Assembly (NCBI RefSeq): GCF_002937075.1
Contig: NZ_NHSJ01000074.1
Location: forward strand, 5,466-41,138
Length of the DNA: 35,673 nt
Reading direction: 5' to 3'
Source of the DNA: Rhodoblastus sphagnicola
GTDB taxonomy: Bacteria; Pseudomonadota; Alphaproteobacteria; Rhizobiales; Beijerinckiaceae
Shown here: positions 1-27,362 of the stretch, in pieces
How positions within the stretch are numbered: position 1 is the stretch's first letter
Layout: every line of letters starts with the position of its first letter
Notes under the pieces: generated by a model
What the model was told of the DNA's origin: nothing
The model's input: the letters and a program-made list of their open reading frames with translations, nothing else
Database searches by the model: none
Program-made: the position numbers and the translations under genes

Positions 1-236
1 AACAATCGCGCAAGAGCGACGCCATCGTCACGGCGGTGACCGATCTGTGCAAGGGGCTGGAGATGTGCGCCACGGCGGAGGGGGTGGAAACCGAAAGCCA
101 GTTCGAGGCGCTGCGCCGGCGCGGCTGCCAGGAGGCGCAAGGCTATTTGTTCAGCCGTCCCTGCGAGGCCGGGGAGATTCCGGCGCTGATCGCGCATCTC
201 GGCATATACGTCGCCCTGCCGGAGGCGGCGGAATAG
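1..236 (+). CDS. EAL-domain c-di-GMP phosphodiesterase, C-terminal end (5' part outside window)
   Basis: This is the last 77 or so codons of an EAL-domain protein, in frame from position 3 to the TAG at 234-236. The late EAL motifs are visible: AEGVET (codons from about 75) and QGYLFSRP. In the family these lie in the C-terminal part of the TIM barrel that hydrolyses cyclic di-GMP. The EAL motif itself and the metal-binding DDFG motif would lie upstream, outside the window, so activity cannot be judged. The reading frame is open to the window edge and may belong to a full-length gene. The same 3' end recurs at 1901-2134 with about 98 percent identity, on the far side of the GGDEF-hemerythrin gene. 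Confidence 0.8.
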   Translation, partial: QSRKSDAIVTAVTDLCKGLEMCATAEGVETESQFEALRRRGCQEAQGYLFSRPCEAGEIPALIAHLGIYVALPEAAE

Positions 237-318
237 ATGATTCCGTGGCTATCCGTTTAACGCGGATACCCACATGCAAAGGGGGCCGCACGCTCGACGC
301 AACGGCGGAGATCGGCGG
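3..318 (+). repeat. Long direct repeat, copy A (EAL gene 3' end plus downstream 80 bp)
   Basis: Positions 3-318 match 1901-2216 at a constant offset of 1898 with no indels. I count five substitutions: two silent changes in the coding part, TAG versus TAA at the stop, and two in the 3' flank. Position 2 also differs (a versus g at 1900) and position 1 matches, so the repeat may continue upstream of the window. It covers the EAL gene tail and a downstream stretch with the ATCCGTTTAACGC motif. Confidence 0.95.
244..285 (+). repeat. Lone copy of an insertion-element end motif (copy 1)
   Basis: The sequence CGTGGCTATCCGTTTAACGC and the following 22 bases closely resemble the terminal inverted repeat at 25452-25494 (CGTGCCTATCCGGTTAACGC, then a related ACCCACA...AGGGG stretch). 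The orientation is that of a left end, pointing towards the GGDEF-hemerythrin gene. I see no matching right end and no target duplication, so this is either a solitary or decayed element end or a related interspersed repeat. Confidence 0.55.
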
Positions 319-411
319 AAAGCGAGGCCGAAATGACCGGCGGCGCGCCTTTGTTTGACTGGGAGGAGGCCCCCCAGTCCGCCTCGCGTCGCAACTGCAT
401 TGGAGAGGAAT

Positions 412-2134: not shown

Positions 2135-2216
2135 ATGATTCCGTGGCTATCCGTTTAACGCGGATACCCACATGCAAAGGGGGCCGCCCGCTCGATGCAA
2201 CGGCGGAGATCGGCGG
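1901..2216 (+). repeat. Long direct repeat, copy B
   Basis: This is the partner of 3-318, colinear and gap-free. Here the homologous coding sequence continues further upstream (to about 1775) than the window shows for copy A. The repeat stops sharply after ATCGGCGG at 2216, where the sequence turns to the flank of the beta-lactamase gene. Confidence 0.95.
2142..2183 (+). repeat. Lone copy of an insertion-element end motif (copy 2)
   Basis: This is identical to the motif at 244-285 and was carried along in the long direct repeat. It is oriented towards the beta-lactamase gene. No inverted partner was found between 2200 and 3400. Confidence 0.55.
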
Positions 2217-2294
2217 ATTCCGGACCACCGCGAGCAGCGCCGGCAAGGGCAATGACATTCCTCCCTTGGGCATCGCACGTCGGCTCTTCGTGGA

Positions 2295-3134
2295 CTATCG
2301 CTCTGTGAGAGAATCTAAAATAGCAGGCAGTTCATTTAGAAATGTGGAACGGGCTCGCAGGCCCGCCGGGTCTGTTTCTTCCTTTTCATCTTGGATCAAG
2401 CGCGCGAAGACCACGGTCTGGGAACCCTTTGTCGCCCATCCGACGAACCATCCATAGGTGTGCGCTTGATCACGCAAGCCATCCGGCGCGACGGGAGAAC
2501 CCGTGCCTGTTTTTCCGTGAATATCCCATCCGTTCGGCAGCATTGTTATCTGCGTAATTCGGCTCGTCATGTCGAATGCATGAGAGGTGACAGGCAATCG
2601 TCGATTGACGACCTTCTCCAAGAAGACCAATTGTTCCAAGGGGGAAATTTTTAAAGACGAACTGAGCCACGCCCGAGTCAAGCCATCATGCTTTCCCGGA
2701 TTTCCAGAAATGTCTTCGTTGCCGTAGCTAAAATCTCTAATGTATTTCTGAAAACGATCTTCCCCAAGAAATTGGGTCACCTGCTGAGAAAACCAGACCA
2801 CTGAATATTTTATCCAGTTCGATGGGTCAGTCGTCTGGCGCCAAGCGGGCATCCAATCAGCGTACCCTTCATGGAATGATAAAGCAGGAAAATGCTCGTC
2901 TTTCAGGAACTGCGCATCGAAGCCCATCAGGCTTATTGCGATTTTGAAAGTCGACGCAGGCGTGACTCGCTCGCTGCATTCGCCTTGCTGCTCGACGATT
3001 CGTCCAGTCTCGGCATCGGCGATAGCCGTGCAAACTGTTCGAGCTTGGCTTGTTGAAGCGGCTAATCCCGCCACCAAAACGCTTAACGCCATGTATCGCA
3101 AATTTATCAAATCTTGCCTCGTCTGAAGCGCCAT
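2295..3134 (-). CDS. Class D (OXA-type) serine beta-lactamase
   Basis: This predicted periplasmic enzyme hydrolyses beta-lactams through an acyl-serine intermediate. Numbered from the ATG at 3134 (279 residues), the class D signature elements are all present: STFK at 61-64 (nucleophile Ser61, general-base Lys64), SVV at 111-113, YGN at 137-139, Trp156 in the AWLSSSLKIS segment, and KTG at 208-210. A signal peptide ends near SQA-R (residue 31). The overall pattern is closest to OXA-1-like enzymes. The start is uncertain: a GTG at 3179 adds 15 residues and an ATG at 3092 gives a shorter leader; none has a strong ribosome site. The gene is visibly AT-richer than its neighbours and lies next to a duplicated region, which suggests acquisition by transfer. 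The resistance spectrum cannot be read from sequence. Confidence 0.9.
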   Translation of the reverse strand: MALQTRQDLINLRYMALSVLVAGLAASTSQARTVCTAIADAETGRIVEQQGECSERVTPASTFKIAISLMGFDAQFLKDEHFPALSFHEGYADWMPAWRQTTDPSNWIKYSVVWFSQQVTQFLGEDRFQKYIRDFSYGNEDISGNPGKHDGLTRAWLSSSLKISPLEQLVFLEKVVNRRLPVTSHAFDMTSRITQITMLPNGWDIHGKTGTGSPVAPDGLRDQAHTYGWFVGWATKGSQTVVFARLIQDEKEETDPAGLRARSTFLNELPAILDSLTER

Positions 3135-3374
3135 CGGTCGGCACAGGCAGTTATAGGTCTTCCGACGCCGATTTTCCACGCAAGACAGTTCCCATTACGC
3201 AGCAAATGGAAACATTCTGCTTGATGCCGTTGGGGCATGGTGGGGGCGTTCGAGACGGCCGCGGGCCTGCTCGGGACTGACGCCTTCGAGCCGATTGCGG
3301 CCGATCAGACGGTCTCGATCTCGCTCGCCGCCAAGTCCATATGTCGTGGGCGCCTGCGTGATCGGATGGCCGGA
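3135..3374. other. Intergenic stretch between beta-lactamase and lysR
   Basis: No gene is recognisable. Composition changes from AT-rich next to the beta-lactamase to GC-rich from about 3235, which places one edge of the foreign-looking segment near there. I found no inverted repeats, transposase remnants or tRNA. Confidence 0.5.
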
Positions 3375-8692: not shown

Positions 8693-8796
8693 CGCATATT
8701 CCCGAAAAGTGTGCGCGGTTTTCGGAAAAGAATATGCGCAAAACCAAAGATTTAGAGCAAGTTCGGTGAACGGGAGTTCACCGAACTTGCTCTAAA
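8692..8796. repeat. REP-type composite palindrome (copy 1)
   Basis: There are two adjacent palindromes. The first, 8692-8739, pairs GCGCATATT with AATATGCGC and, inside, CCGAAAA with TTTTCGG. After an AAAACCAAAGA spacer the second, 8751-8771 with 8776-8796, is a perfect 21-bp stem (TTTAGAGCAAGTTCGGTGAAC) closed by a GGGA loop. The same two-part layout occurs at 31947-32043 and, split by an insertion, at 25367-25447 plus 27326-27344. It lies between the convergent rnhA and rhlE genes. Confidence 0.85.
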
Positions 8797-25368: not shown

Positions 25369-25447
25369 AGCATTTTCAAGCGAAGTGGATGCCAGTTCGC
25401 GTGAAGAAAATGCGTAAAAACAAAAAAATAGAGCGCATTTGGTGAAC
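25367..25447. repeat. REP-type composite palindrome (copy 2), left part, interrupted by insertion
   Basis: The first palindrome (25367-25421) begins at the stop codon of the HExxH gene and pairs GCATTTTC/GAAAATGC and an inner AAGCGAA/TTCGCGT. It matches the reverse complement of 31988-32043 closely. Then, after an A-rich spacer, comes the left arm TAGAGCGCATTTGGTGAAC (25429-25447) of the second palindrome. Its right arm GTTCACCGAATGCGCTCTA is at 27326-27344, 1.9 kb away, because a mobile element sits in the loop. Confidence 0.85.
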
Positions 25448-25451
25448 AAGT
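25444..25451. repeat. Target-site duplication, left copy
   Basis: GAACAAGT, repeated exactly at 27318-27325. It directly abuts the left terminal inverted repeat of the element at 25452. Confidence 0.85.
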
Positions 25452-25494
25452 CGTGCCTATCCGGTTAACGCATACACCCACAACATGTAGAGGG
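25452..25494. repeat. Left terminal inverted repeat of the element
   Basis: It begins CGTGCCTATCCGGTTAACGC and pairs with 27275-27317. Mismatches are at positions 2, 6, 28, 31 and 33 of the repeat. Diverged relatives occur at 244-285 and 2142-2183. Confidence 0.88.
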
Positions 25495-25675
25495 GAGGCG
25501 AGCCAGATCGAGACCGCCGGACCGACCGAGTCCGGCTCGAAGGCGACGTTCGCATGCTTTCATGAACGACGGCTCGGTGTTCGATTGCCGACATGGTCGT
25601 CGGCTTTACTTAACGTAGCAATAATCCAGGCGCGTTAGGGTTCAAGCGTTGTCCTTCGATGAAAGAGATTGCGAG
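25495..25675. other. Inner left flank of the element
   Basis: These 181 bases between the left terminal repeat and the passenger gene hold no gene. They could carry the passenger's promoter; no convincing consensus pair is seen. Together with the interrupted palindrome this is a gene-free stretch of about 300 bases. Confidence 0.4.
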
Positions 25676-27133
25676 ATGAGTTCTTTGAACAGCTCGGAAG
25701 AACCAGAGGTTTTGGACATTCCGATGTCTGTCACCCTCAGGCGGCAAATCCCCATCCGTTTCGATGAAGCCCCGCGATCCTGGCTCGGCGGCTTGCCGAT
25801 GATGCCGAAGGGAATGAAATGGCCGCGCGACCCCGAAGGCGCTCCGCTGCATTTCGTCGCGCAAATCGCCTGCGCCGATCTCCCGGCGGCTCTCTGGTTT
25901 GGGCAGGGCCCGCGCCAGGGGTGGCTGCTGCTGTTCGTGGAAATCCTGAAATTCCAATACAGTGACGAAGCCGAACGCGGAATGGTGCAGGTTCTGCACA
26001 CCACGGAGCTCGGCGTCGAGCATGAGCCCCCGCAAGATCTTCCCACCGTCCGTCATGTGATGAGCGATTATATTGGCTATGCCAAGCCGGAGTTTCGGCC
26101 CGGCGTGCCGAAACTCTGGCGCAAATGGCCGGTCGATGTCGTCGTCAGGGAAGCTCCGTTGATGTTTTCGGTGGAGGGCCTTTACCAGGAGCCCGTGTCG
26201 GAACACTCCATCAAACTTCATGGCGGCATCGACCTCGACCGCCCGCTCACCTGGCGTGGGGCGCTCTATGTCGTCGAAGGCGTCGCCGATGACGTCAGCG
26301 CGGAGAATGTCGAACGCAACATCGACAACGCGGGCGTGCTGTTCGAGCCGCCGGAGTTCGACCAGGGGTGGATCGAACGCTGCTTTGAGGCGCTGGACAA
26401 GACGAGAGCGAAACTCCAGGAGAACCGCGACAAGAACCAGAAAAGGCTCGACAAGGGCGTGGGGGGCTCTGTCCTGAAGGCGCTTGTGGCGGATGACGAG
26501 AGCAGCCTTGAAAGGCTGGACAAAGCCCGCGCTCGCTGGGAAGACGTTCACCGGGCCTACCCCGGTCCCGAGGGCGAGGCGAGCCTGAACGCCGAGATCA
26601 AGAGCCTGGGCGAGGCGCATCTGGCGTTGATACCCGAACTGCGAGCCCTGCTCACGCGCCTGATGGACCGCATCCTCGCGCAGGACCTCGACGCGCCTCT
26701 TCCGGAGGCAGAATGGTGCGCCATTCGGGCGAGCATGGAAGACTTCAAGAGCACGTGCTGGGTCGCGGCGGAGGGTGTTCCCGAAAAGGCCGAGTGTCAG
26801 GTCGTGCGCTGGTACAACCGCCTCGACATGGCCATACGCGAAGACGTGCTGGACCTTTACGCGCGCGGACAGCGGCATCCCGCGCTGGCGGGCGCGCGCC
26901 TCCGGGATATCGAGGAAAAGCTGCGGAAACTGGATCGTCCGCATCGCATGGGAGGGATTCCAGCCTCCGGGCAATGCGATAATCCGCTCGAACTGACGCT
27001 GTTGATTGAATTGGCGACCGACGCGGCGATGGGCTGGTCCTGGCACGACGCCGGAACGCTCTTCGTGACGACTTCGCCCTCCGCGTTGCGCCGCAACCGC
27101 TTCAACAAGCTGGAAGCCTGGATCGAACAGTGA
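25676..27133 (+). CDS. DUF1963 (YwqG-like) protein, passenger of the element
   Basis: This is a 485-residue protein. Residues 27-70 match the start of the DUF1963/YwqG fold: SWLGGLPMMPKGMKWPRDPEG followed by LHFVAQIACADLP. The end (about 425-485) matches its close: GGIPASGQCD, LLIELATDAAMGWSWHDAGTLFV. Between them is an insert of about 200 residues, partly coiled-coil-like (about 240-330), longer than in typical YwqG. No signal peptide or membrane helix is seen. The function of DUF1963 proteins is not established. The ATG at 25676 has AAAGAGA upstream; a TTG at 25649 is possible. It is the only gene within the terminal inverted repeats. Confidence 0.82.
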   Translation: MSSLNSSEEPEVLDIPMSVTLRRQIPIRFDEAPRSWLGGLPMMPKGMKWPRDPEGAPLHFVAQIACADLPAALWFGQGPRQGWLLLFVEILKFQYSDEAERGMVQVLHTTELGVEHEPPQDLPTVRHVMSDYIGYAKPEFRPGVPKLWRKWPVDVVVREAPLMFSVEGLYQEPVSEHSIKLHGGIDLDRPLTWRGALYVVEGVADDVSAENVERNIDNAGVLFEPPEFDQGWIERCFEALDKTRAKLQENRDKNQKRLDKGVGGSVLKALVADDESSLERLDKARARWEDVHRAYPGPEGEASLNAEIKSLGEAHLALIPELRALLTRLMDRILAQDLDAPLPEAEWCAIRASMEDFKSTCWVAAEGVPEKAECQVVRWYNRLDMAIREDVLDLYARGQRHPALAGARLRDIEEKLRKLDRPHRMGGIPASGQCDNPLELTLLIELATDAAMGWSWHDAGTLFVTTSPSALRRNRFNKLEAWIEQ

Positions 27134-27274
27134 TCGCCGGCGGTGATTGCGTTCCGTTGGACGCGGGGGCCGCGCTTGGCAGGGTCCGCTTGGCAGGGCA
27201 TTGCTTCCCTTCGGCCTACGCCCGCAAACCGCCGCTCTCTGTCTTTGCCCAAGCACTTTGCCCAAGCGCGCGAT

Positions 27275-27317
27275 CCCTCTACATATAGTAGGTGTATGCG
27301 TTAACCGGATAAGCAAG
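27275..27317. repeat. Right terminal inverted repeat of the element
   Basis: The reverse complement begins CTTGCTTATCCGGTTAACGC and aligns without gaps to the left end. It starts immediately inside the target duplication at 27318. Confidence 0.88.
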
Positions 27318-27325
27318 GAACAAGT
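27318..27325. repeat. Target-site duplication, right copy
   Basis: GAACAAGT, identical to 25444-25451; followed at once by GTTCACCGAATGCGCTCTA (with the T shared), the right arm of the interrupted palindrome at 27326-27344. Confidence 0.85.
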
Positions 27326-27362
27326 GTTCACCGAATGCGCTCTAGCCGTCGGTTTTCGACTC

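Follow-up and report, generated by a model that had tools for sequence, protein, structure and literature searches.

The 35,673-nucleotide stretch of Rhodoblastus sphagnicola DNA that we analysed as a whole (the window) contains an element that is very probably a mobile insertion cassette, in which IS1595-type ends enclose a DUF1963 gene and which would be moved in trans. A sequence-only reading of the window had placed a transposase-less mobile cassette at 25444-27325, and this interval corresponds to the element together with both of its 8-bp target duplications (Table 1). As that reading had described, re-measurement of the terminal inverted repeats (25452-25494 and 27275-27317) gave 38 identical positions out of 43, and the GAACAAGT duplication around the element is exact (8/8). 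The 21-base core of the repeat, TATCCGGTTAACGCATACACC, was present in two copies in the window when up to three mismatches were allowed, compared to a mean of 0.00 in 100 shuffles. The claim of a single non-transposase gene inside was also correct: the one long open reading frame (ORF) matched DUF1963 in Pfam (2.3e-22), and a tblastn comparison of the element with the IS1595-family transposase of a Rhizobiales MAG (L051) gave no match. Inverted repeats, a target duplication, a passenger gene and no transposase, the marks of a mobile insertion cassette, are therefore all found in the window element.

Table 1. Coordinates of the cassettes, their ends and the interrupted palindrome in the window
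Feature	Position	Strand	Details
Element proper	25452-27317		1866 bp
Left 8-bp target duplication	25444..25451		GAACAAGT
Right 8-bp target duplication	27318..27325		GAACAAGT
L-type end of window element	25452..25541	+	43-bp terminal repeat and conserved subterminal part (profile R1, 91 positions)
R-type end of window element	27219..27317	-	Terminal repeat and conserved subterminal part (profile R2, 87 positions)
Passenger gene, DUF1963 protein	25676..27133	+	485 aa from ATG; ORF also opens at TTG 25649
Left arm of palindrome, split by the insertion	25429..25447	+	
Right arm of palindrome	27326..27344	+	Loop AAGT at 27322-27325
Second cassette (C74b), more decayed	2142..3372		R end 2142-2225; L end about 3285-3372, L terminus decayed
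Passenger of second cassette, class D beta-lactamase	2295..3179	-	294 aa
Solo R-type end	244..324	+	Part of a direct duplication

The proposal that the element belongs to a family in the same genome was confirmed. The 21-base core (up to three mismatches) had 8 copies in the 5.09-Mb R. sphagnicola assembly, and a control pattern had 0. Alignment revealed two end types, L and R, each conserved over about 75-90 bp and unlike each other beyond the terminal repeat. Profiles of these ends each matched 8 of the 11 genomes of the genus, R. sphagnicola included (E 0.01); the raw counts in the R. sphagnicola genome, 22 for each profile, include cross-hits to the opposite end type. Nine two-ended cassettes were recovered in this genome (C74, which is the window element, C39, C71, C14, C87, C112, C45, C125 and C74b), and in all of them the L end faces the R end. 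The duplication is perfect in C74, C71 and C14 (8/8), matches at 7/8 in C39 and C112 and at 6/8 in C87 and C74b (AATGATTC and GATTATTC in the latter), and was not found in C45 and C125 when a boundary shift of up to 4 was allowed. Among eight end pairs in relatives of the genus, L057 has a 7/8 duplication once the boundary is moved by one base, duplications of 6/8 (L171) and 7/8 (L176) appear at shifted boundaries only, and the remaining five pairs have none. Several ends have decayed, so that the family is probably old; few copies are as well preserved as the window element. Solo ends, such as the one in the window, are also present in the R. sphagnicola genome. Window positions 3-319 match 1901-2217 at 98.4%, and each copy of this direct duplication ends in an R-type end.

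For one family member, C71, an element-free locus was found: the relative G008 has the left and right flanks directly joined with no cassette, and 51 bp beside the cassette position are missing there too. This was the one informative case among ten relatives, since the other nine gave the left flank only, bar one short stray match to the right flank. The sequence-only reading had also suggested comparison with a strain having the empty window site; none was found, and the upstream neighbour was absent beside the amidohydrolase in the three relatives having the amidohydrolase.

The genes enclosed by these ends differ from copy to copy. The nine R. sphagnicola cassettes carry genes for DUF1963, PAP2-autotransporter, LGFP repeat, PAS-GGDEF and BLUF proteins, for a class D beta-lactamase (in C74b; NF000270, 356.8 bits, cutoff 280) and for three proteins without a Pfam match, while end pairs in the relatives enclose choloylglycine hydrolase, Hint_2, SDR and PEP-CTERM proteins and a TIR plus nSTAND1-WD40 pair. 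Comparison of 16 bacterial cargo proteins with each other gave no similar pair at E 1e-4. Cargo orientation, judged by the longest ORF, is mixed, running from L to R in 6 of 11 bacterial cassettes and from R to L in 5. Because a beta-lactamase is carried here by what is presumably an environmental bacterium, the vehicle is not restricted to a single sort of cargo.

A foreign base composition of the window cargo was ruled out: its GC3 of 0.77 falls within the range of seven long window ORFs (0.66-0.84), some of which overlap each other and not all of which need be genes, and a 207-aa neighbour has 0.56. GC3 was 0.63 or lower in nine of the other 13 cargos measured, the stretches used for C71 and C87 beginning without a start codon. 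Relatives of the DUF1963 gene were detected outside cassettes in five genomes of other genera (397 searched), with no clear cassette-end match in any of the five, indicating that the gene exists outside the cassette too. Searches with the DUF1963 protein gave no solved structure at E 0.01 and no plasmid homologue at E 1e-10. Defence as the function of the cargos was rejected, as a PADLOC scan of nine proteins (that of C71 lacking its true start here and in the NCBIfam scan) returned weak matches only, all of them involving the TIR and nSTAND proteins that occur together in one relative. The end pair around these two proteins (L176 2579-8336, in G009) spans 5.8 kb and its duplication is doubtful; they are possibly a defence pair carried as cargo.

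L051 contains a 1081-bp element with near-identical repeats around an IS1595-family transposase (PF12762, DDE_Tnp_IS1595, 1.3e-36; PF12760, IS1595 Zn ribbon, 5.5e-14). Across 397 genomes of the order, a sample without other members of the genus, the repeat (up to three mismatches) was found in R. sphagnicola only and a transposase, at E 1e-70, in one genome. A repeat profile of 42 positions, run with stricter filters on 385 genomes of the class, matched 10, R. sphagnicola included. L051 and, from this class survey, G729 each have a transposase and an end pair with no 8-bp duplication. G491, one of the 10 matched genomes, contains MITE-like copies of 111 bp, of which three, at different sites, have exact duplications and a fourth has 6/8. 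Complete elements on two plasmids, pHSL1 of Tardibacter chloracetimidivorans and pDC08 of Rhizorhabdus wittichii, have repeats with 2 mismatches over 27 positions, and their duplications are exact (GGTCGTTC and GAAACATG, respectively), and the pHSL1 transposase matched the NCBIfam IS1595 model NF033547 at 2.3e-61 (207 bits, cutoff 75). The transposase frame of a related element on pIBU218 is interrupted; pRW412a and an NBWT7 plasmid gave the same alignment. Transposase-less elements with exact duplications were also found on the Methylocapsa polymorpha plasmid pRX1, where the passenger is a cupin gene (GAACAATC), and in an Acetobacteraceae MAG (L052; GGAAGAAC). On a Methylocystis heyeri plasmid, the genes for a DUF4175 protein and a Crp/Fnr regulator are enclosed by an end pair (L193 3997-5470) that has no clear duplication.

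A duplication of 8 bp is the value of the IS1595 family. We measured this length in the window element, in pHSL1 and pDC08 and in 19 complete elements of viral contigs (see below). Among 24 elements with a transposase, identity to the L051 transposase correlated negatively with mismatch in the repeat (Spearman -0.71), with a p of 1e-4 that is optimistic because the 24 elements are related. The genus itself gave 16 IS1595-family transposase matches, two of them in the R. sphagnicola genome, and none of the 16 loci, a few of which are cut by contig ends, matched the repeat profile at E 1 with default filters; the two R. sphagnicola matches have other inverted repeats. With the R. sphagnicola assembly split into 141 contigs, an IS present in several copies could be missing from it. 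Complete IS1595-family elements with the same ends thus exist in other organisms (L051, pHSL1 and pDC08), but no transposase with matching ends was found in the genus, the R. sphagnicola genome included.

Relatives of the cassettes are also present in IMG/VR, whose contigs are predicted viral. Pattern scans together with a transposase search yielded 110 loci with 117 inverted end pairs 60-6000 bp apart. An 8-bp duplication (at most one mismatch) was found at 68 of the 117 pairs and at 0, 0 and 0 in three shifted controls. These 68 pairs collapse to 56 elements in 52 loci, one element (L323) being a nested alternative of another, and 52 of the elements have an exact duplication; since the loci were chosen by their ends or transposase, the counts say nothing on prevalence. 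A transposase is present in 19 elements (1579-2563 bp) and absent from 37 (235-1423 bp), and 26 of these 37 have a single ORF that occupies 70% or more of their length. Scanning of 34 cargo ORFs (three elements had no usable ORF, and for L053 and L263, each with two overlapping ORFs, the shorter one was taken by judgement) gave matches to 10 Pfam families and 22 PHROGs, counted as families and not as members. They include a Mom-like modification protein, a DNA methyltransferase, an RNA ligase, a DHH phosphoesterase, a PAPS reductase, MazG, a nucleoside deoxyribosyltransferase (3 members) and a radical SAM protein. The cassettes of L289, L312 and L319 have similar DNA (81-85%) and three different duplications, and in L312 and L319 the similarity goes no further than the element boundary, as expected if the element moved as a unit. 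Ten neighbouring ORFs from six contigs were compared: five, on four contigs, matched phage polymerase, helicase/primase, portal or exonuclease families and the other five had no match. The L051 element had no match in a phage collection of named records. One 117-kb viral contig (IMGVR_UViG_3300050119_000104) holds 235-242-bp MITE-like copies (L314, L318 and L320) with different 8-bp duplications.

The viral elements bear on where the cassettes came from. The cassettes could be deletion derivatives of complete 'transporter' IS1595 elements, with transposase and passenger, from which the transposase disappeared, and not products of gene capture between free ends. This account concerns origin and is compatible with the insertion-cassette reading; we consider it rather unlikely. 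In its favour, the 19 viral elements with a transposase are longer than the transposase alone, and their mutual similarity mostly covers about 1 kb while the rest differs. However, the 14 bacterial cassettes hold no clear transposase remnant, and their conserved subterminal parts do not resemble the ones in L051; comparison of the subterminal parts of the 14 cassettes with the L051 transposase gene gave one hit, at E 0.67, and they are not derived from it. Loss of the transposase by itself also leaves unexplained why many unrelated cargos lie between the same two types of end.

The sequence-only reading had further placed the element in the loop of a REP palindrome and considered a palindrome-loop target a notable variant. 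When the flanks were joined and a single copy of the duplication was kept, a hairpin with the AAGT loop was indeed restored, consisting of 19 pairs, one of them G-T. The claimed match to the palindrome at 8751-8796 held for the layout, which has the same 4-base loop, and for the arms, which are related in sequence, but not for a REP family: a motif search with one substitution allowed found no further copy in 176,590 bases of the R. sphagnicola genome (overlaps included), and a repeated family is therefore not established. If the loop of REP-like palindromes were the specific target of the cassette family, strong dyads would be expected at other insertion sites. In a smaller first set, 3 of 10 sites had one, the third being the second window cassette (p 0.03), and C39 lies, by eye, between the arms of another palindrome; the Fisher p was 0.02 with the window site but 0.17 without it, and C39 itself scored p 0.90. 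In a larger set, 15 bacterial and 55 viral sites were given, and one of each was dropped because its flank was too short; the bacterial part took in complete IS and MITE sites and left out C74b, C45 and C125, and the nested L323 had been removed beforehand. Unusually strong dyads (p<=0.05) were found at 2 of 14 bacterial sites, with rank p values of 0.002 for the window site and 0.007 for C71, and at 2 of 54 viral sites, leaving 12 and 52, respectively, without one. We therefore regard the palindrome loop, although real at the window site, as a very improbable special target of the family, and this part of the proposal was not sustained. The duplications of 70 sites gave a weak palindromic 8-mer, roughly GWTNNAWC, and a weak preference for palindromes within the genus is possible.

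That two independent short elements, MITEs or solo ends, flank a host gene by chance is most improbable: 111-bp MITE-like pairs with the same repeats (G491) and solo ends in the R. sphagnicola genome do exist, but the window element has one L and one R end, a single 8-bp duplication brackets the two, and the same facing of L and R recurs in 9/9 R. sphagnicola cassettes.

The best reading of the window element thus remains an insertion cassette mobilised in trans by an IS1595-type enzyme, the donor of which is absent from the genus assemblies searched. According to this model, an IS1595-type DDE transposase would recognise both ends of a unit that has one cargo gene between them and no transposase of its own. 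The enzyme, encoded by a complete IS that shares these ends (e.g. that of L051 or pHSL1) and acting in trans, would bind the terminal repeats and move the whole unit, and insertion, at a weakly palindromic target, would produce the 8-bp duplication. The cargo is interchangeable, the same pair of L and R ends enclosing different genes in different copies. We infer mobilisation in trans and the choice of transposase, as we would any benefit brought by the cargo.

More tentatively, and with a little less than even confidence, we suggest that IS1595-type ends may constitute a general single-gene exchange system common to phages and bacteria. Phages would pick up and trade one-gene cassettes (for DNA modification, nucleotide metabolism and RNA repair), the transposases coming from other phage elements that have this type of end, and certain alphaproteobacterial lineages would keep a resident set with its own cargo. 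If so, the system would resemble the integron cassette pool, but would be driven by a DDE transposase and have no array or fixed platform. Genes that arrive singly without a visible vehicle, in bacteria or in phages, may ride such cassettes, which in an annotation look like nothing more than one gene with a short repeat on either side. With the end profiles, the cassettes can be located and the exact limits of the moved DNA read off, and the long-standing question of how phage genomes acquire single accessory genes becomes testable.

Among the matches listed in the open-access literature, no title concerned phage-borne insertion cassettes, nor the size of this family, its cargo range, its resident set in one genus or the viral single-gene cassettes. 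IS231 is generally assigned to a transposase family other than IS1595. Mobile insertion cassettes and passenger-carrying IS are already known kinds, as PMC3129680, PMC3913671 and PMC5704250 describe. The designation of the window element as a passenger-only element of IS1595 type holds in that its ends are common to complete IS1595 elements, but mobile insertion cassettes were, according to PMC3913671, first described for IS231. MIC231 of Bacillus cereus likewise has inverted repeats around a non-transposase gene and is mobilised in trans by its cognate IS (PMC3913671); the window family differs from it in its IS1595-type ends, 8-bp duplications, varied cargo and relatives in viral contigs. 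Passenger genes and 'transporter ISs' are mentioned in PMC3129680 with a citation of the IS1595-family paper (its reference 6), and transporter ISs, MTnSag1 and tISCpe8 in PMC3129680 and PMC5704250. The window element has its terminal repeats in common with the IS of this family, most of whose complete elements measured also show the 8-bp duplication, but it has no transposase and has conserved subterminal parts of its own. The mic elements with qnrD and qnrS2 are similarly a gene between inverted repeats with no transposase nearby, although in the qnrD cassette the repeats are 24 bp long and the duplication is 2 bp (PMC3913671). With MITEs the window element shares the non-autonomous state, the repeats and the duplication, and the family includes 111-bp (L231, L236 and L241) and 235-242-bp (L314, L318 and L320) forms of this kind; unlike them, the window element carries a complete gene. 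Finally, integron gene cassettes are alike in outline, with one gene per unit and differing cargo, whereas the window family has inverted repeats, 8-bp duplications, mixed orientation and copies scattered singly; by their duplications, orientation and scatter, these units do not fit the integron pattern of a common recombination site, a single orientation and arrays.
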